64,000 bases of DNA from Symmachiella macrocystis (GTDB lineage: Bacteria > Planctomycetota > Planctomycetia > Planctomycetales > Planctomycetaceae): positions 372,001 through 436,000 of the forward strand of contig NZ_SJPP01000003.1 of assembly GCF_007860075.1 (NCBI RefSeq). The letters run 5' to 3'. Below the pieces are notes generated by a model that saw only the letters and a program-made list of their open reading frames with translations, made no database searches and was not told the DNA's origin. Each line of letters starts with the position of its first letter. The stretch's first letter is position 1. The position numbers and the translations under genes were made by a program. Positions 10,550 through 18,890 of this stretch are shown here, in pieces.

Positions 10550-10691
10550 TACTCATGGTGCGGACGGAAATTGACCATTCGCAGCAACAACCCGACCCGG
10601 GGGCGATCGGTTTCGACTGGATCACTGCAGGTAGGGGTGGCGTGTCGTGGTTGATCAGCCGGCCACGTAAAAAGCTGATCAAAAACTAATT

Positions 10692-10721
10692 GCCGAAAAG
10701 CAATTCCAAATGGCTGCCTAA
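10692..10721 (+). other. tmRNA proteolysis-tag reading frame (AEKQFQMAA)
   Basis: Nine codons from GCC at 10692 to the TAA at 10719-10721 encode AEKQFQMAA. The pattern A-E-x-x-aromatic-x-L/M-A-A fits tags reported for planctomycetes and the hydrophobic-Ala-Ala end recognised by ClpXP-type proteases. The resume codon is placed just after the first stem, as expected. Met in place of the more common Leu before AA is slightly unusual. Confidence 0.88.
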
Positions 10722-10795
10722 TCATGGCAACCCTGGTTTAGGAATCCCCGCCTAAGGAGTCCGAAGACCAGTCAAAAAATTGGGCTGGCGCCGAG

Positions 10796-12268
10796 TCAAT
10801 GTCCGCTACGTTCGGCGCGAGACAAGTGGTGGGCTAGCCGCGAGTAGGCTTTGTCTGTTGAGCCTACCAACGCGAAACTCAATCGGCAGAATACACACGT
10901 AGAGGCCTTTACTGAGGTATCACAGGACGCGGGTTCAATTCCCGCCGCCTCCAATCCCCGGTTTTGCAGTGTATCGCCACAAGTCGCGGAACCTTGCAAT
11001 ACCGGGGTTTTTTCATGCGCTCCCCCTTCGGCTTGCGACTCACAACCATTCCCGGCGCGTTCCGACTGCGCCGCTTTTTGCGCCGCTTTTTCTTCCGCAT
11101 CGGTTGGTGCATGTTCTTCGGCCCCGACACCGGCAATCGCCCGCTCAAAATCGGCGTCGGTCACGTCGACGTAGTGACGCATCGCGACGGCTTGCGTGTT
11201 CCCCAACCACTTCGCCACGACCGCCAACGGGAATTTGCGGGCTAAGTCCGTTTCACAACTCGCCCGCATCGAATGCCACAACCGGGACCAGGGTTCCAGA
11301 CCCGCGCGGCGAATTACTTTTGCCAGCGTTGTCCTCAGGTTGGCGTTCGCCCAGCCGGCCGGGCCTTGGGCACGTCGCCGGTATTCTTCTGGAATGACGT
11401 ATTCGGCCCCTTCGGGCGCGTCGTCCCAGGCCTTTTCCAAGTATGGCCGGACGGCGGGGAATAGCGGAATAACTCGGTAGCTTCGCCCCGCCAGGTGTTG
11501 CGTCTTGGGGCTGGGCACGGTCAAACGCCCTCGCTCCCAATCCACGTCTTGCCATCGCAGGCTAAGGGCTTCGCTCGGCACGCGCAGGCCCGCGAAACGG
11601 GATAAGGCAATGAGCAACTTCCAAGTGCCGTTGGGGGCGTGTTCAATAGCACGTTCAACGTCGGCCAGAGGGACATAGGCTCGCCGCTCCGATGCGTCGC
11701 CGGGCCGATGCCGGACAAACTCAAACGGGTTCGCATCAACCAAACCTTGCCGCTTGGCGTGGGCAAAGAACATGCGGGCATGTTGCAACCGCTTGTGAAT
11801 TGTGGTTGCTCGCAGTTCCGCAGCCAACATGGATTGCCGGAATGCTTCGGCCTTGTCGGGCGTCACTTCCGTAAGCGGGCAGTCGGCCCCCAGGAAGCCC
11901 GTCAGGGCGTTGACAACCTGCCCCCAGGCAATGAGACTTGTCGGCTTGTAGTCACCCTTTCGGGACGCCAGCCAGGCTTGCAGGAACGGCCCCAGCGTCG
12001 CCACCGGCTTGGCTTCGGGATCGGGTACCAATCCCACATTGGCAAGTTTCTTCGCCATCTTTGGTTCCAGGTCGGCGACCCATTGGGCCAAGTCGGCTTC
12101 CATCGGGCGATTCAGATTGAGTGATTCAAGCAATTGTTCTACGCGGTATTTAATGCTTTCGGCCGCCCGCTGCGAAACTTTTCCCAGGCGGATCGTCGGC
12201 CGCCGGCCATCGGGGGCTACGAAAAGAATCCGCCGCGTGCCGTTCTTATCTTTGGCAATGCTGGCCAT
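10796..12268 (-). CDS. int: Tyrosine site-specific recombinase (integrase), integrated-state form
   Basis: The product is 490 residues. A SAM-like core-binding domain spans about 90-185, and the catalytic domain about 195-375 has R229 (FAGLRVPSE), H332/R335 (WHSMRAS), W354 and nucleophile Y366 (MRHYVDV). It should excise and integrate the element. The frame crosses the 24-base core at codons 439-447 (LEAAGIEP). Everything after that, about 43 residues, is read from the antisense strand of ssrA. In the circular form the same frame would continue into 18865-18648, giving 518 residues. The ATG at 12268 lies six bases after the stop of the XRE-type gene, so the two are probably co-transcribed. 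Confidence 0.93.
   Translation of the reverse strand: MASIAKDKNGTRRILFVAPDGRRPTIRLGKVSQRAAESIKYRVEQLLESLNLNRPMEADLAQWVADLEPKMAKKLANVGLVPDPEAKPVATLGPFLQAWLASRKGDYKPTSLIAWGQVVNALTGFLGADCPLTEVTPDKAEAFRQSMLAAELRATTIHKRLQHARMFFAHAKRQGLVDANPFEFVRHRPGDASERRAYVPLADVERAIEHAPNGTWKLLIALSRFAGLRVPSEALSLRWQDVDWERGRLTVPSPKTQHLAGRSYRVIPLFPAVRPYLEKAWDDAPEGAEYVIPEEYRRRAQGPAGWANANLRTTLAKVIRRAGLEPWSRLWHSMRASCETDLARKFPLAVVAKWLGNTQAVAMRHYVDVTDADFERAIAGVGAEEHAPTDAEEKAAQKAAQSERAGNGCESQAEGGAHEKTPVLQGSATCGDTLQNRGLEAAGIEPASCDTSVKASTCVFCRLSFALVGSTDKAYSRLAHHLSRAERSGH
10930..10953 (+). repeat. Left attachment core (attL) within ssrA
   Basis: The 24 bases include the T-loop, the 3' T-stem strand and the acceptor 3' strand of tmRNA. 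They are identical base for base to 18866-18889. The base before the repeat (G at 10929) completes the fifth T-stem pair only at this copy, which shows that the left flank is the original host ssrA. Confidence 0.93.
11067..11089 (+). repeat. Candidate integrase arm site, left
   Basis: Two copies of TGCGCCGCTTT in tandem with a 12-base period, 113 bases inside the left core. The same double repeat recurs at 18807-18829 near the right core, in the same orientation but in a different reading frame of its gene. That suggests selection on DNA rather than protein. It could be an arm-type binding site for the integrase or an accessory factor. Confidence 0.4.
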
Positions 12269-12274
12269 CGTGTG

Positions 12275-12502
12275 TCACTTTCTTTTCGGTTTTGGATTGC
12301 GGCCCATGTGAACTGTTAGTTGCAGGAACGCGCCCAACGCATTTAGCGATTCCATCGAGAGGCCGCGATGCCCGTTGTAGAACTTCGCCAGTGCGCTTTC
12401 GTCGATGTCGGTTTGCCTGGCGATTTCGTATCGCGACAGCCCGCAATCGTCGATTGCTTGCCTCAATTGGTCAGTCAGTTTCATAGTTCGTTTTTTCGCC
12501 AT
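12275..12502 (-). CDS. XRE-family HTH regulator
   Basis: This small protein of 75 residues has one Cro/C1-type helix-turn-helix. LRQAIDDCGLSRYEIARQT forms the first helices and DIDESALAKFYNGHRGLSM the recognition region; a basic tail ends in NPKPKRK. It stops six bases before the integrase start and probably regulates it, or acts as a directionality factor. ATG 12502 (MAKKRTMKL) was preferred over an upstream extension rich in non-conserved residues; ATG 12484 is another option. It overlaps the 3' end of the preceding gene. Confidence 0.75.
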   Translation of the reverse strand: MAKKRTMKLTDQLRQAIDDCGLSRYEIARQTDIDESALAKFYNGHRGLSMESLNALGAFLQLTVHMGRNPKPKRK

Positions 12503-12846
12503 GCGGGTATCATATCGAATACTGGTCTCTTGGTCCAGCACGCTTGCCGTACCAAACGGGGAATTCGAGAAACCGGCCACAACTGCCGCAGTCCCGCCGG
12601 ACGAATTACCCACCGTGAATCGGTAAGTCGCGCCAGGTTGTCGAACCGCATCGGCATACCGGCTTCGTGGGCTTCGCCGGGGGGTCGCTCTGCTCTTTCG
12701 ATAAGTTCAAGATTCGCGGCCGCGATGTGCTGCCGCTCGTGGTGGTCAATAATCCGCATGGCCCGCTCGTGGTCCTTGCTCGGGAGCCATGTGCTGATGT
12801 CTTTGGCGATGGTCCACGGGTCGACAAGTTGTTCGGGTTTGGTCAT
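12481..12846 (-). CDS. Hypothetical element protein
   Basis: 121 residues, not recognised. The N-terminal half (MTKPEQLVDPWTIAKDISTWLP) looks folded and helical. The middle is rich in His and Glu (DHHERQHIAAANLELIERAER), and the C-terminal part is basic with tryptophans. The ATG at 12846 follows a GAAAG purine stretch. The 3' end overlaps the XRE-type gene by 22 bases, as is common in compact mobile elements. The C-terminal 40 residues could be a drifted frame. Confidence 0.5.
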   Translation of the reverse strand: MTKPEQLVDPWTIAKDISTWLPSKDHERAMRIIDHHERQHIAAANLELIERAERPPGEAHEAGMPMRFDNLARLTDSRWVIRPAGLRQLWPVSRIPRLVRQACWTKRPVFDMIPAWRKNEL

Positions 12847-12871
12847 GGTTTTTCTTTCAAGGTTTGGTGAA

Positions 12872-12968
12872 TTCTGGACCTTCTGGACCTTCTGCCGGTT
12901 AGTCTCCCGTGGGGGCGTTTTTGGCGCTTATGCCGGATTTAGGTCCAAAAGGTCCAAACCGTCCAAAA
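12872..12968. repeat. Iteron-like 9-base repeats at the 3' end of the helicase gene
   Basis: TTCTGGACC occurs twice in direct succession (12872-12889). Three near-identical nonamers of the form GGTCCAAAA stand in tandem at 12942-12968. The first group is the inverse of the second with one mismatch per unit. They face each other across about 50 bases beside a replication helicase. They could be an origin, an operator or chance; the right-hand group also encodes LDGLDLLDL. Confidence 0.4.
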
Positions 12969-14421
12969 CGCCGATGCCTAAGTACCATTTCACGCCCTCC
13001 TTCAATCGTTCGTAACCTCTTTCAGTCATTGCCTCTCCGAACTTTCGTTGAGTCAAAAAGTGTTCGCCATTGGTTTCGGACCATTGCTTGTAAGCCTCGT
13101 AGATTTGCGACGCTTTACAGCGGTACGACAGCCCCGTGATACAACAATCATCGATGAACGCGCCGATCACGTCCTGACTGCCCCGATACTCGCTTGTCGC
13201 CAACTCAATCGCCGCTGGTAGCGACGTCAATCCTTCACGCTGCCACACCAAACAGCCCTCAACCAACCATGCCAATATTGCCGCGGATTCGGCCCGCAGC
13301 TTGGACGGGAGTTGCTTGTCCTGTTTGTCTTCGGGAACGATGTTCTTGAATGGGATCAGCCGCAGGCGTCGCCAAATCCCGTGGTCGGTGCCTTTGACGG
13401 TCGGCTTGTGATTTGTGCACAACACCAGCTTGTGAGTTGATTCAAACTCGAAGAAATCCTGCCGCATAAATCGGGCGCGGATTCGGTCGCCGCCAGTCAA
13501 GGACTTAATCAGCGTTTCGTTGAGTCGTCCGCCGTCGCCACTTTCAACGCAAGCCACAAACCGCTTGCCCATCAGGTCGGCCTTATCGCACGGATGGCCG
13601 TCGTTGCGTTTTTCGATTAGAAAATCCTGCGCGGCCTGCATCGAATAATCCGGCCCCATTGCGTGAAGGACGGCTTCCAAAAACGTGGTTTTGCCGTTCG
13701 CTCCAACGCCAAACAGAATCGCCAACATATGCTCAACGGTTTGACCAGTGAGAAAATAGCCAAACAGCTTTTGCAGCCACGCAATGAGTTTAGCGTCAGA
13801 GTTGAACGTTTCGGACAGCCAATTACACCACAGTTCACTTTTGGCACCCGAAGTGTAAATCGTTGGTGAAAGTTTGGTGATGAAATCCTCGCGCCGGTGT
13901 GCCCGCAATTCGCCGGTCTTCAATTCAATCGTGCCGTTCAAACAATTAAATAACATCGGGTCACAATCCAGGTTCTCCGGCAGAATGGACCGCTGGTCCC
14001 GTGATACTTTGACGATTGCATCCATGCTGCGAGACGATTGTGATCTTGCCGCGTGACTGCTTCCGCTGTCGTCTCCGTATGCTTCACGGAACATGTTGAT
14101 TACGGTCAACTTGACCTTTCGGAATATCTCGCCGGAATCATCCTGTCGCCAGCATTTGCCGTTCCAAATCAACCACTTGCCAGTCTGGAAGCAAAAACGG
14201 ATATTTTCGCCGTGGTCGTCCACGAACCGCATCGCGTTACCCAAATCTGTCGTCGGGTAAAGTTTCCGCTTGCCGTTTTGTTGCGTTTTAGTCGCGCGAC
14301 TATTGTGCAACTCCTCCGGGTTGGCGTCTTGGAATTCACGTTCCATCGCCACACGTGCTTCGCGGTCGGTTGCAAGTATCGCCTGTTGGGCTTCATGCCC
14401 GTGATATGCTTCAATCGTCAT
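12928..14421 (-). CDS. D5/P4-type replication helicase (SF3)
   Basis: The product is 497 residues. A D5_N-like region (about 150-230, DPMLFNCLNGTIELKTGEL) precedes an SF3 ATPase core with Walker A GVGANGKTTFLEAV (about 237). VACVESGDGGRLNETLIKSLTGGD carries the Walker B region and LVLCTNHKP the sensor motif. Family members unwind DNA at the origin of P4-like phages, plasmids and islands. No archaeo-eukaryotic or TOPRIM primase domain is visible in the N-terminal 150 residues, so this is a helicase-only form. The start at 14421 overlaps the preceding HTH gene by 11 bases. Confidence 0.9.
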   Translation of the reverse strand: MTIEAYHGHEAQQAILATDREARVAMEREFQDANPEELHNSRATKTQQNGKRKLYPTTDLGNAMRFVDDHGENIRFCFQTGKWLIWNGKCWRQDDSGEIFRKVKLTVINMFREAYGDDSGSSHAARSQSSRSMDAIVKVSRDQRSILPENLDCDPMLFNCLNGTIELKTGELRAHRREDFITKLSPTIYTSGAKSELWCNWLSETFNSDAKLIAWLQKLFGYFLTGQTVEHMLAILFGVGANGKTTFLEAVLHAMGPDYSMQAAQDFLIEKRNDGHPCDKADLMGKRFVACVESGDGGRLNETLIKSLTGGDRIRARFMRQDFFEFESTHKLVLCTNHKPTVKGTDHGIWRRLRLIPFKNIVPEDKQDKQLPSKLRAESAAILAWLVEGCLVWQREGLTSLPAAIELATSEYRGSQDVIGAFIDDCCITGLSYRCKASQIYEAYKQWSETNGEHFLTQRKFGEAMTERGYERLKEGVKWYLGIGVLDGLDLLDLNPA

Positions 14422-14653
14422 CGTCGCCCCTTTTCTCAGCTTCCGCTTGCCGGCTCAGCCAAGCTTGTAGTTCGGCAACGGGATACAAAACCGATTGCCG
14501 CTTCCCGTGTCCGATCCGAAGGCAGGGAATCGGGCCGCGCGGGGCCGTCAGCCCCCACAAGGTGCGAGGGGAAATGCCCAGCGCGATCGCCGCGTCGCGG
14601 GGCCGCAGGGCCAGGGGAGTGGGCGTCGATGTCGCAGGGGTGTTACTTCGCAT
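14411..14653 (-). CDS. AlpA/excisionase-like HTH protein
   Basis: 80 residues with a MerR-like winged HTH: RPRDAAIALGISPRTLWGLTA is the helix-turn-helix, followed by the wing PCLRIGHGKRQSVLYPVAELQAWL. Such proteins act as excisionases or activators of integrase genes in P4-like elements. The acidic end GDDDD overlaps the helicase start by 11 bases. It is preceded by a second, similar small gene that also overlaps by 11 bases. Confidence 0.8.
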   Translation of the reverse strand: MRSNTPATSTPTPLALRPRDAAIALGISPRTLWGLTAPRGPIPCLRIGHGKRQSVLYPVAELQAWLSRQAEAEKRGDDDD

Positions 14654-14840
14654 GGTCCACCCCCTGCCGTTTCTCTGCGGCTTTTGTCGCTACGGCGTCT
14701 TGCACCGCTACCGCGTTGAAGAGATACCGTTTGCCCGCAAGCAAACAGGGCACCTTGCCCGCGTCCGCTTGTTCCCGCAGCCAGTCTTGAGTTACCCCAA
14801 GCCGCCGGGCCATGCGGGCCAATGAAAGCAAGTCACTCAT
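14643..14840 (-). CDS. Second small excisionase-like HTH protein
   Basis: 65 residues. SLARMARRLGVTQDWLREQADAGKVPCLLAGKRYLFNAVAV matches the helix-turn-helix plus wing of the helix_turn_helix/excisionase DNA-binding group. It heads the block of overlapping genes through the helicase. Two such proteins in series may divide the roles of excision and transcription control, which is inference. Confidence 0.78.
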   Translation of the reverse strand: MSDLLSLARMARRLGVTQDWLREQADAGKVPCLLAGKRYLFNAVAVQDAVATKAAEKRQGVDHAK

Positions 14841-14965
14841 CGCAAGTTTTCCTCAGAGAAGGAATGAACCGCCGGCCAATGGCCAGCATCTGCGATGAAT
14901 CTTAAGAATGGGCGTGCGCGCTACCGGCGCGCTACCCGCGCGCTACGTGGTGAGTTTGCCGCGTA

Positions 14966-15664
14966 TTACGTGTCAGGCTCGGCCAGTCGATGCGATCCTT
15001 TGCTGCCGCCGGGCACGATCAGCGTTCCCCATGCACAATGATCGCGAAACAACGTGGATAGACGCGCAGGCGGGGCCTCGGGGTCGACCGCCAAGAGAAG
15101 CGTTTCGTCGCCCACGTCGGGTGTACCGGCCTTCCAGTTCTCGTATAGCAACCGCATCACCGGGGCCTGGTTCACCGTGAAAGAATAGAGATTGCCACCC
15201 CACCACATCGACCGGAAGTCAGTGCTCGCCGCTCCCGAGGGTTCGCCGCCCGCTCCCAAGGTCCTAGCCACCGGGGGCTGCCCGTTATCGTCCGCCGTCT
15301 CGTCGTCCTGCTTGGCCGTTGTCGAGTTGTCGTTGTCAGATACGGTATCCTCGCCGGAAGCAGTCTTCTCGCGTCTTCGCCGCCCGCCCATGAACAAGTA
15401 CATCCGCTCTGCCAGGTTGCAGATGCCTGCGACGATCTCACCGTACACCCCATTCTGCGCGTCCTCGATCATTACGACCCAGGCTGGTGCCTTGCCCAAA
15501 TCCGACTTAGTCCATAGTTCGAACGAGAAGTTGAACGCCGCATACTCGGTTTCTTTCATACCCTCGCAGATGCGAGATGCATATTTCTCACCGTCGACGA
15601 CGCAGACGGGGATTTTTGCAGGTTCGGTGTCGGCACCCTCAACGAAAATGGTGAATGCGGGCAT
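14966..15664 (-). CDS. Hypothetical element protein with a C-terminal domain of possible wHTH type
   Basis: 232 residues. The N-terminal about 95 residues form one domain (FTIFVEGADTEPAKIPVCVVDGEK, FNFSFELWTKSDLGKAPAWVVMIED). Residues about 95-150 are an acidic low-complexity linker. The C-terminal about 80 residues (FTVNQAPVMRLLYENWKAGTPDVGDETLL, then WGTLIVPGGSKGSHRLAEP) have the cadence of a winged helix ending in a beta hairpin. I recall similar C-terminal regions in other planctomycete island proteins, but no function is known. It is the first gene upstream of the HTH-helicase block. Confidence 0.65.
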   Translation of the reverse strand: MPAFTIFVEGADTEPAKIPVCVVDGEKYASRICEGMKETEYAAFNFSFELWTKSDLGKAPAWVVMIEDAQNGVYGEIVAGICNLAERMYLFMGGRRRREKTASGEDTVSDNDNSTTAKQDDETADDNGQPPVARTLGAGGEPSGAASTDFRSMWWGGNLYSFTVNQAPVMRLLYENWKAGTPDVGDETLLLAVDPEAPPARLSTLFRDHCAWGTLIVPGGSKGSHRLAEPDT

Positions 15665-16003
15665 CGAAGTCGCCTTTCTTTAGGTCGGGCCGATCCCCAG
15701 CACGACGATGCGAAAGGCGAGAAGCATCCATCGCGCCAGGGGCCGCTTGGCCGCCGGTTTGCAACCCGGTCAACCTTCCCGAATACCTCTAATTCTCGTG
15801 TTTTCGGACTGCGCGGTCATAAGCGTAATCGAATGACGAGACAACCACCCCGCCCGACTTGAGGTTGTACACCGCCGTAGGTTGGCACATGGAGTGATGG
15901 CCGTAGGGGAACCGCTCCTTGTCTCCTCGCCAGAAGCGGAGCATTCGTATTTGGCGTTCGGAGCAAATGGATCTTCCCTGCTTCGCCTCACCAAATCATC
16001 ACC
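15665..16003. other. Element stretch without a supported gene
   Basis: About 340 bases. Short open frames exist on both strands but have no protein-like composition or ribosome-binding site. This may be a decayed gene or the promoter region of the HTH-helicase operon. Confidence 0.4.
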
Positions 16004-16465
16004 TTACCAACGGTACCCCCGGCTCAATCTCCATTCACCGTCCACAATCTTCAAGGCGAAAAACTGATGTATCTTCTCGCCTCCTTCCTCAAAATCTATG
16101 CGTACCATCCAAAAACCCGCCTTACCTCTGCGGGCCCATGATATCTTGAATTTCTTAAGGCCAATCTTCTTGTATCGCGCGCAATAGTCTTCAAATTCTG
16201 TTTGAACGGTAACATCCAACTTCGCAGGCCCATACCATAACTCTCTTGCAGATTCATAATTTTCTGCTTCGGCAAATTCCAGGAATTTCCTCACCGAGTC
16301 GCCCGGCACGTTGCCATTCTGATCCTTTGGCGGGCACAAGTAGTAAACGTAATAGCCCAAACCGGCTATGGCAAACAGCGTCAGGAGGACAATCCTAAAA
16401 ACGATCTTCCCGCTTCTTCGGCATGTCTCCACCGCAGAGACATTTCCATGTGTTTGTGCTTTCAT
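16004..16465 (-). CDS. Membrane-anchored NTF2-like (DUF4878-type) protein
   Basis: 153 residues. A single TM segment at about 22-45 (IVFRIVLLTLFAIAGLGYYVYYL) precedes an extracytoplasmic domain. VRKFLEFAEAENYESARELW, then alternating strands ending in FFALKIVDGEWRLSRGYRW, fit the cone-shaped NTF2-like fold seen in DUF4878 proteins. The ATG at 16465 opens the frame just before the anchor. The role is unknown; as element cargo it may be an envelope or immunity-type protein. Confidence 0.65.
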   Translation of the reverse strand: MKAQTHGNVSAVETCRRSGKIVFRIVLLTLFAIAGLGYYVYYLCPPKDQNGNVPGDSVRKFLEFAEAENYESARELWYGPAKLDVTVQTEFEDYCARYKKIGLKKFKISWARRGKAGFWMVRIDFEEGGEKIHQFFALKIVDGEWRLSRGYRW

Positions 16466-16609
16466 AGCATGCCTTCGATAGTGCTATCGAATAAATATCC
16501 ACACGTGGATCGCCCGCGAAATCTCATAGGTTTCTTTTAAGCAACGACAGCGTGCGCGCGTTCTATTTCCCGGCACCTTGGCCTTACACCGGTGTTTGTA
16601 CCGGGCCGG

Positions 16610-17017
16610 TTACTTTGGGTAATTCTCACCCCAGTCTATTGAGGGAACAAACCGCAGAAAGGCTTCATAGTCTGCTGGCTGCGAAAAATACCATTCATTG
16701 AAGCCAAAATCGTAATCTGTTTTCACGAACCAATGTTCAGCCCATGCCCCAACGTGGCAATGTGGCAGGTCAATCGTGCAAGCTGGATACTCAGAATACC
16801 GTTGTGAACATTCACCATTGGCTGGGCCGAATTTTTTCCAACACCAGCGATTCGCGAAATCAAGTTCCGGAAATGCCAACTCCAGCATAACGGCAAATGG
16901 AAAATCTCTAACAATCTCCTGCCGTTCTCTTTGTTGGTCAGCCTGCTCCTCAGCGGTGTCGCCACCGGTTTCCAAATATGCATCGAAGGTTGATAGAATA
17001 GCTGTTCGATAAATCAT
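16610..17017 (-). CDS. Hypothetical acidic protein
   Basis: 135 residues, not recognised. It is acidic and rich in Trp, Phe, Tyr and Cys (RWCWKKFGPANGECSQRYSEYPACTIDLPHC, then WAEHWFVKTDYDFGFNEWYF). It has no signal peptide or membrane segment. The composition is that of a small folded protein, not a random frame. It lies in the more A+T-rich cargo part of the element, next to other small genes. Confidence 0.55.
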   Translation of the reverse strand: MIYRTAILSTFDAYLETGGDTAEEQADQQRERQEIVRDFPFAVMLELAFPELDFANRWCWKKFGPANGECSQRYSEYPACTIDLPHCHVGAWAEHWFVKTDYDFGFNEWYFSQPADYEAFLRFVPSIDWGENYPK

Positions 17018-17138
17018 GATTCATTTGGTGGCTAGGGTAGGTGAGACTGATACCGGGGCGACTTCGGGGCTTCATTCCGAGCAGCCTCGCCAACCGGTCA
17101 TTCCGTGTGACCGCCGACGTTCCCATCAGCATGAACCA

Positions 17139-17354
17139 TCATACTTCGCCACGAAGTACTGCACTAGCACTCTCTATGGAGGGCCATTCTCGGTCCGTAA
17201 GTTTCTCAAATAAACACTGCAAATTCCATAAAACCTGTTGCTCGGCTTGGTCTTGAATTGTCAGTTCGTCTGTTTCGGCGAAACGGCGAAGAAAAGAGTC
17301 AAGCACAACAGCCTCGGGAACTGTGATTTGGATGACGACATCTGACTCGGCCAT
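17139..17354 (-). CDS. Hypothetical small acidic protein
   Basis: 71 residues from ATG 17354 (MAESDVVIQI), which has GGAG seven bases upstream; an in-frame ATG at 17408 would add 18 residues. The sequence (VVLDSFLRRFAETDELTIQDQAEQQVLWNLQCLFEKL) is amphipathic, helical and acidic, as in many small binding or antidote-type proteins. No family recognised. It lies 122 bases upstream of the 16610-17017 gene on the same strand. Confidence 0.5.
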   Translation of the reverse strand: MAESDVVIQITVPEAVVLDSFLRRFAETDELTIQDQAEQQVLWNLQCLFEKLTDREWPSIESASAVLRGEV

Positions 17355-17844
17355 GTCACACTCCGACAAGCTAGTTCGAACTTTTCTCACCTCAAGTAGT
17401 GGCGACATTCCAACCCAAAGCTAGAATCGGCTGTTAGCTAACTCGCTTCGGATTCATCAATCGACGCATTGAAACTACCAAGACGCGGCAAGTTTGAAAA
17501 CGTTCCATTTCCGCGACAAGTGGCATACTCGCGGCCAGTTGCTCCATTTGTCTTACAGGGCAGTGCCATAAACCCATCATCGCAGCAATGAATAACACAT
17601 CCGATTTCCCCTCCACGGCACTGGCGTAGGCGGTCTGTGCCGCCGCTCGAAAGCCTAACTAGCCCACTGCCGTACGCTCCCTTTCAACCATGTAGTCCGC
17701 TGGCTGTTCCTTGCCTATCTTGACTCCTGAGGGGGCTTAGGCTGGATATCTACATACGATATGGGACCGGGCAACGGGCGGGGGGAAGCGGTTCGGATCT
17801 CGGCGGGTTCGGTTTTCGGGCCCGAAGGTGGACACTGTCCGCGC
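17355..17844. other. Element stretch without a supported gene
   Basis: About 490 bases. A 60-codon frame at 17434-17616 (minus) is open but unconvincing. The palindrome GGACACTGTCC lies at 17830-17840 just past the stop of the next gene and recurs at 18222-18232 inside it. Nothing else stands out. Confidence 0.4.
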
Positions 17845-18651
17845 TCATTGGCCGCTCATCTCCTCCCGCACATCATCGAGCAGCCCACGCACCTCCTCAA
17901 TGGCCATGCGTTCGCGCCGCATCACATCAGCCTCACCATCATCCGAAGCTGTGGCCTTGGCCGCCACATCCACGTACTTGGCGTAGCTGCGGATACTGGT
18001 TTCGAGCCAACCGAGGGCAGACCAGGAGGGAGCAGGGGACAGGGCCAAGTCCAGCCGAACCACGGTCGCATGGCCCGGCTTCTCTTCCACGATCCGGAGC
18101 CGATTCGCCTGCACCCATCCAATCTCAGCCGACAGCGAAGCGTTGGCCGGCAACTCGGACCACGAATCCGGAATGGCCGACAGCCCCTGAATCTGGCCAT
18201 CGTCTACTGGGCGCTGCGCCCGGACACTGTCCGCGCTTGGCTGCTCGGCTTCCGCCGCTTTCGCTGGATACATGCGGTCCAGTTCGCCGTAAACCCATAG
18301 CTGGGCGTCTTCTTTGCTCATTCCCTGCTTCCGGGCGAGCTTCATCATCTGGTTGCGTTCCAGCTCAATATTCCCAGCCCATCGCCCCTCAGCCTCAAGC
18401 CGCCGCTTCACCGTGATTTTAAGCGGCTCCTCGCGCGGGCGGGCGGGAGGTTCCGGCGGTGGATCGCCGGACGCTGGCCCTGGAGGAATATCCCCCGCGT
18501 CCTGATCACCGGTTTGGTGATCAACGGTGTCCTGTTCTCCCGTGTTTTCCGTGTCTTCTGCTGTGTGTGTTGGATTGGGTGCTTGCCGGGGAATTGGTCC
18601 TGCCGTCGACATCGCGGTGATGTGCGCTTCCTGGTCGGGTGTTTTGGTCAT
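17845..18651 (-). CDS. Hypothetical element protein coupled to the severed integrase tail
   Basis: 268 residues, not recognised. The N-terminal about 75 residues are disordered and rich in Pro, Thr, Asp and Glu. A short helical segment follows (ITVKRRLEAEGRWAGNIELERNQMMKLARKQGMSKEDAQLWVYGELDRMYP), then a C-terminal region (SAEIGWVQANRLRIVEEKPGHATVVRLD, ending in a charged helix). The ATG at 18651 overlaps the TGA of the 18648-18890 frame (ATGA). In the circular element this gene would follow the integrase in one operon. In the integrated form it is cut off from the integrase promoter. Confidence 0.7.
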   Translation of the reverse strand: MTKTPDQEAHITAMSTAGPIPRQAPNPTHTAEDTENTGEQDTVDHQTGDQDAGDIPPGPASGDPPPEPPARPREEPLKITVKRRLEAEGRWAGNIELERNQMMKLARKQGMSKEDAQLWVYGELDRMYPAKAAEAEQPSADSVRAQRPVDDGQIQGLSAIPDSWSELPANASLSAEIGWVQANRLRIVEEKPGHATVVRLDLALSPAPSWSALGWLETSIRSYAKYVDVAAKATASDDGEADVMRRERMAIEEVRGLLDDVREEMSGQ

Positions 18652-18890
18652 GGAGCGTCCTCGAATTCTCCGGTGAAGGGATTGTCGCCCGAATCCGCCG
18701 CCCGGATCATCGCCAGGATGCCGACCTTGATGGCTTCGGGCAGGGCCGGCCAAGCGTCGATGATGACCTGCAGGTCGGGGTCAGTCGGGGCGTTTTGTAC
18801 GTTGAGTGCGCCGCTTTCTGCGCCGCTTTGGTCGCCACCCCCACGATTTCCCGACGATTTCGGGTCGGGTTCAATTCCCGCCGCCTCCAC
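18648..18890 (-). CDS. Severed C-terminal part of the integrase at the right end
   Basis: 80 codons that start in the attachment core as GTG (VEAAGIEP) and continue DPKSSGNRGGGDQ to TDPDLQVIIDAWPALPEAIKVGILAMIRAA. The reading frame at the core is the same as that of the integrase at the left end, so the circular form would join the two without interruption. The helical end is protein-like and resembles tails I associate with planctomycete integrases, by recollection. Whether this fragment is translated by itself from the GTG is unknown; it ends in ATGA coupling to the next gene. Confidence 0.75.
   Translation of the reverse strand: MEAAGIEPDPKSSGNRGGGDQSGAESGALNVQNAPTDPDLQVIIDAWPALPEAIKVGILAMIRAADSGDNPFTGEFEDAP
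18807..18829 (+). repeat. Candidate integrase arm site, right
   Basis: Two TGCGCCGCTTT units with a 12-base period, 36 bases from the right core, in direct orientation with the copy at 11067-11089. Over 23 bases the two sites differ at one position, the spacer base. Confidence 0.4.
18866..18889 (+). repeat. Right attachment core (attR)
   Basis: Exact 24-base copy of the ssrA 3' end at 10930-10953. The base before it is T, so the first T-stem pair is lost; no tmRNA body lies upstream. It marks the junction between element (left) and host (right). Confidence 0.92.

Follow-up and report, generated by a model that had tools for sequence, protein, structure and literature searches.

If the attachment site of a genomic island lies within the gene for its own integrase, then what does integration do to the enzyme, and is the exchanged part of any consequence? 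These questions are raised by an island in Symmachiella macrocystis, located in the window (the whole stretch of DNA analysed, 64,000 nucleotides). The integration target is the tmRNA gene (ssrA; 10599..10953, plus strand), which was called by both ARAGORN and Rfam (RF00023) and is regenerated at attL. Its last 24 bases, CGGGTTCAATTCCCGCCGCCTCCA, form the att core at 10930-10953 (attL copy) and recur identically at 18866-18889 (attR copy), both on the plus strand; measured core to core, the island spans 7936 bp (10954..18889, no strand assigned). In same-genus relatives, the left flank is homologous exactly as far as 10953, where the tmRNA ends, and no further, which supports the island boundary. 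The locus thus has the makeup of a tDNA genomic island, with an intact tmRNA at one end, a displaced 3' fragment at the other, and an integrase.

In addition to the integrase gene (int), the minus strand of the island encodes a Cro/CI-type helix-turn-helix regulator (12275..12613; Pfam HTH_26, PHROG transcriptional repressor), a P4-family primase/helicase (D5; 12928..14421; Pfam D5_N, TIGR01613), and two excisionase-like HTH_17 proteins whose genes overlap (14411..14653, PHROG 66; and 14643..14840, PHROG 66 and 1840 with a weak TIGR01764 match). None of the remaining island frames could be assigned to a known family, and the island looks like a small integrative element or satellite. One of these frames, at 17845-18657, encodes a 268-aa protein whose start would overlap the int stop in the circle (ATGA at 18650). 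Translational coupling of the end of int with this next gene is seen here but is not conserved in other islands, and it was not used as evidence.

In the integrated state, int (10796..12268, minus strand; Pfam PF00589 and PF13102, PHROG 1) encodes 490 residues and crosses the attL core antisense in the phase LEAAGIEP. The right-end copy of the core is read in the same phase and continues for 72 more residues, as the first-pass annotation had claimed; the exact 24-bp repeat and the translation both agree. This detached 3' end (18648..18865, minus strand), hereafter the tail, is in frame through the core and terminates in a conserved two-helix module, DPDLQVIIDAWPALPEAIKVGILAMIRAA. A scripted join of 12268-10954, the core, and 18865-18648 (1315 + 24 + 218 = 1557 nt) gave a single open frame of 518 residues with one terminal stop, reproducing the size that had been predicted. 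The free and integrated states therefore encode different proteins, as had also been proposed, with 446 residues in common, 44 found only in the integrated form, and 72 only in the joined form. The final 44 residues of the 490-aa protein are a read-through of antisense tmRNA. In this respect the earlier account was right about the nature of the swap but not about its extent: it described about 43 terminal residues as replaced, whereas 72 are lost and 44 gained.

Int is a tyrosine recombinase. Its R...HxxR...Y catalytic domain matches PF00589 (E 2.9e-11), the motif residues (R229, H..R335, Y366) include three, R229, R335, and Y366, that are invariant in the alignment, and the domain is complete by about residue 380. 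The AlphaFold2 model of the 490-aa form is mostly confident to residue 380 and of very low confidence from 380 to 477, which places the core (approximately codons 439-446) in a linker. The N-terminus is predicted to be strand-strand-strand-helix, and three strands with a helix are the fold type of arm-binding domains in lambda-type integrases. Two tandem 12-bp repeats, AAAGCGGCGCA[A/G], lie on the int side of the core (11066..11089, minus strand), where they encode KAAQKAAQ; they are candidate arm-type integrase binding sites. The same two repeats occur on the tail side (18806..18829, minus strand) in another reading frame, where they encode SGAESGA. Tandem copies of AAAGCGGCGCAV at 11066-11089 and 18806-18829 are the only matches to this 23-bp pattern in 64 kb, against an expectation of 0.

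Comparable repeats, with a sequence particular to each island, occur in most of the related islands considered below, at distances of about 105-190 bp ahead of the core and 35-80 bp past it, and flanking tandem repeats are above shuffles in 21 of 29 islands. The repeats on the two sides of the core are read in different frames in 20 of 28 islands, and are therefore conserved as DNA. SGAESGA was also considered as a protein motif and rejected, the DNA repeats accounting for it. With repeats flanking the core and a predicted N-terminal fold that fits an arm-binding domain, the simplest reading is that the 3' end of int may double as an entire lambda-like attP, putative arms included. As far as can be read from sequence and structure prediction, int encodes a probable lambda-type tyrosine integrase, and its attP lies inside its own coding sequence; the gene order in the circle would be catalytic domain, linker with candidate arm-type repeats, core, further candidate arm-type repeats, and two-helix tail module.

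If the tail were peculiar to this island, then homologous integrases would end before the core, an outcome that the first-pass annotation had named as telling against its reading. Instead, a conserved tail beyond the core is present in homologues: in planctomycete relatives, the sequence past the far core is a module of ~35 aa, WPxLPxxIKxxILAMV. AlphaFold2 predicts a two-helix hairpin at residues 38-66 of 80 (pLDDT about 95-97). No relatives of the module were found in Pfam, NCBIfam, PHROGs, or the PDB, and the tail was not found in phages; a fold search also gave no match, as expected of a two-helix hairpin. For the closest tail pairs, dN/dS is mostly about 0.2-0.5, and these values are signs of purifying selection on the putative tail. 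For the module, the median is 0.5 over all usable pairs and 0.73 over 70 disjoint pairs (10 of them above 1), values that are rough because dS approaches saturation in the majority of pairs and some pairs, a minority, lie above 1.

Comparative analyses indicate how regularly the tail is placed. A search of 59 related genomes with the 70 residues that follow the right core placed tail and integrase matches on the same contigs. In all 13 tail-int pairs at most 60 kb apart, the two share a strand and int lies downstream of the tail, a placement that is required if the circle joins int to the tail and that would arise by chance at 0.25^13 = 1.5e-8 with pairs treated as independent. The far core is in frame with both int and tail in 12 islands, including that of the window. 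Similarly, in a second survey in which 20 kb downstream of 40 tails was read, no integrase was found on the strand opposite its tail, and of the 18 integrases having an att-like core, 16 were in frame. The merged table is limited to islands in which the core is confirmed by a tDNA and the tail is clear (and thus omits the weak-tail islands G003 and G015, both also in frame); there, 27 of 28 tails are in frame across the core. Only one island lacks an open frame between the int domain and the core, and none lacks it between the core and the tail. The exception, G047, has an int fragment only; a further island, G176, is out of frame and has a core without a recognised tDNA. At a one-third chance per island, the binomial probability of 27/28 is about 1e-12, or about 1e-9 with close relatives merged and one unconfirmed out-of-frame island added. 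The predicted in-frame arrangement is more than chance.

A reciprocal survey began with six integrases without a detectable tail nearby and yielded four far cores. Three of these (in G003, G015, and G045b) are followed by in-phase divergent tails of the same pattern (W..L....), and the fourth (G006) by a stop. Some integrases (those of G017 and G006, and the tandem int of L099 and of L140) end just before or after the core; either certain elements may do without the tail, or these early-stop integrases may be decaying. A broken frame at the circular junction was the other adverse outcome that had been foreseen, yet nearly all islands preserve the frame at that point. Moreover, where islands lie in tandem, int, core, and tail become joined within the chromosome itself, and three natural tandem or remnant junctions hold the int C-terminus, core, and tail in one open frame. 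For instance, in G250:C21 a 556-aa frame consists of an int C-terminus, the 21-bp core of a neighbouring tRNA-Glu, and a tail; the others are in G168:C41 and G045, and all three are remnants on the N-terminal side. No closed circular contigs were found by terminal overlap, and viral contigs and plasmids gave no useful match to the window integrase.

The design is widespread in the phylum. A tail match at E 1e-4 or better was obtained in 153 of 298 planctomycete genomes, and a scan of 85,000 species with one tail pattern gave 80 loci, nearly all in Planctomycetota; the few labelled Latescibacterota, Actinomycetes, or Zipacnadia are possibly mis-binned. A tRNA or tmRNA 3' fragment lies directly upstream of 56 of 76 scan tails, compared to 3 of 43 control stretches. 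The targets are tmRNA and ten tRNA types. At some loci, such as L191 (tRNA-Cys), the tDNA is in sense orientation at the tail side, and the constant feature is therefore the tail rather than the tRNA strand. The integrases form two deep clades, and tails occur in both; core length is mostly 14-28 bp in the first clade and mostly 47-71 bp in the second.

The nearest known counterpart is Myxococcus phage Mx8, in which, according to PMC4701971 and PMC6070905 (the latter citing Tojo 1996 and Magrini 1999), attP lies inside int and integration trades 112 C-terminal residues for 13, giving a less active Int. As in Mx8, attP here falls within the int frame downstream of the catalytic domain, which is kept, and only the C-terminus is exchanged, in frame; the Mx8 Int record even reads TGLEP at the matching place, like antisense tRNA. 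However, a tail HMM gave no match to the Mx8 Int C-terminus, and Mx8 is a single phage with an unrelated tail, whereas the present arrangement is phylum-wide, with two integrase clades and eleven target types. The window integrase would thus appear to work like the Mx8 type without sharing its tail family. Streptococcal ICE serine integrases in rumA likewise exchange the 3' part of the integrase gene upon integration (PMC4701971), but the recombinase is of the serine type, the partner is a protein gene, and the frame is changed. In archaeal SSV-type suicidal integrases, the att site is also within the integrase gene (PMC8371274), but the catalytic part is cut from the N-terminal part; here the catalytic domain is complete on the int side, and only a C-terminal module is lost. 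The island otherwise resembles Islander-type tDNA islands: it has a tyrosine integrase, and the intact tmRNA and its displaced 3' fragment mark opposite ends. Among those islands, integrases extending across attP, as the window integrase does, are exceptions, for which Mx8 and SSV are named (PMC4383910). No description of such a design in Planctomycetota was found in open-licence papers. What is already known is therefore the kind, attP in int as in Mx8; what is new is the phylum-wide scale, the common tail module, and the candidate overprinted arms.

How might the tail act? The first-pass annotation suggested that the swap could tune excision against integration, an idea for which Mx8, not named there, is a direct precedent. 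Integration at the tmRNA 3' end carries the tail to the far island end and leaves Int with a short antisense-tmRNA end, and excision would restore the tailed enzyme. The tail may promote recombination, most likely integration of the free circle, perhaps via protomer contacts in the synaptic complex or with a host protein; its loss upon integration would lower Int activity and thereby keep the island in place. Excision would then need the weaker tail-less Int together with one of the excisionase-like proteins, or full-length Int supplied in trans from a second copy. With Mx8 as precedent, we consider it rather probable that the circle produces tailed Int, that recombination is favoured by the tail, and that losing the tail makes the integrated state more stable, although the Mx8 tail is not homologous to the planctomycete tail and Mx8 behaviour may not carry over. 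That same precedent bears on the possibility that the tail sets the direction of the reaction and not its strength, with full-length Int favouring integration, tail-less Int favouring excision, and the DNA state selecting between them. The swap is exactly coupled to the DNA state in the surveyed islands, excisionase-like genes are present, and the tailed form is encoded by the circle only; nevertheless, for Mx8, the only experimental precedent, PMC4701971 reports the effect as a lower activity of the integrated form rather than as a gain in excision, and we regard this possibility as unlikely.

It is also conceivable, if more doubtful still, that the tail governs the amount or location of Int, through protein stability or through docking to a host protein, while playing no direct role in synapsis. 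The module is borne by a long linker of low model confidence and is common to two deep clades with different targets in one phylum, as expected for a common host partner, but no partner is known, and the database searches described above gave no match. We think it very improbable that attP lies at the int 3' end by chance and that the sequence beyond it is a functionless leftover frame. This could explain SGAESGA-type motifs at the tail start, which the arm repeats account for, but the WPxLP..ILAMV module lies beyond the repeats, is conserved as protein phylum-wide, and is in frame in 27/28. Least credible is a suicidal enzyme that integration destroys, like that of archaeal SSV viruses: integration does split the gene physically, but no catalytic residue lies beyond the core, and by residue 380 the fold is already complete. 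We tentatively raise a bolder proposal, to which we give less than even chances: a phylum-wide, built-in directionality device, in which a detachable two-helix module beyond attP is added or removed by recombination itself and docks to a conserved partner, such that the DNA state alone sets direction whatever the tRNA target.

The choice between integration and excision is usually ascribed to accessory factors, and in these islands it is the enzyme itself that recombination alters. Mx8 has counted as a rare exception; with an entire phylum employing this arrangement and one recognisable tail, full-length and tail-less integrases can be compared in many naturally occurring pairs. Additionally, Planctomycetota integrase genes are likely annotated with misleading C-termini derived from antisense tRNA, and the tail is a mark by which the other island end can be located.

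Several individual loci have features of their own. In the same genome, beyond the window (G000:C3:457500-520000; L075 and L076), a second split island is present at tRNA-Val, with int broken into two frames and, at a distance of 58 kb, an in-frame tail. The target of a similar island in G153:C1:793250-813249 (L192) is a gene that ARAGORN calls a selenocysteine tRNA. In G047:C1 (L174, L175, L220), 27 kb separate two tails that are nearly identical, and no integrase was found in their vicinity; in G009:C1:1496279-1498786 (L063) two related integrase genes adjoin. Finally, a 6.3-kb tail-bearing contig (L092) has a coverage of 264, compared to 30 for another contig of the same MAG, and is perhaps a multicopy or shared element.
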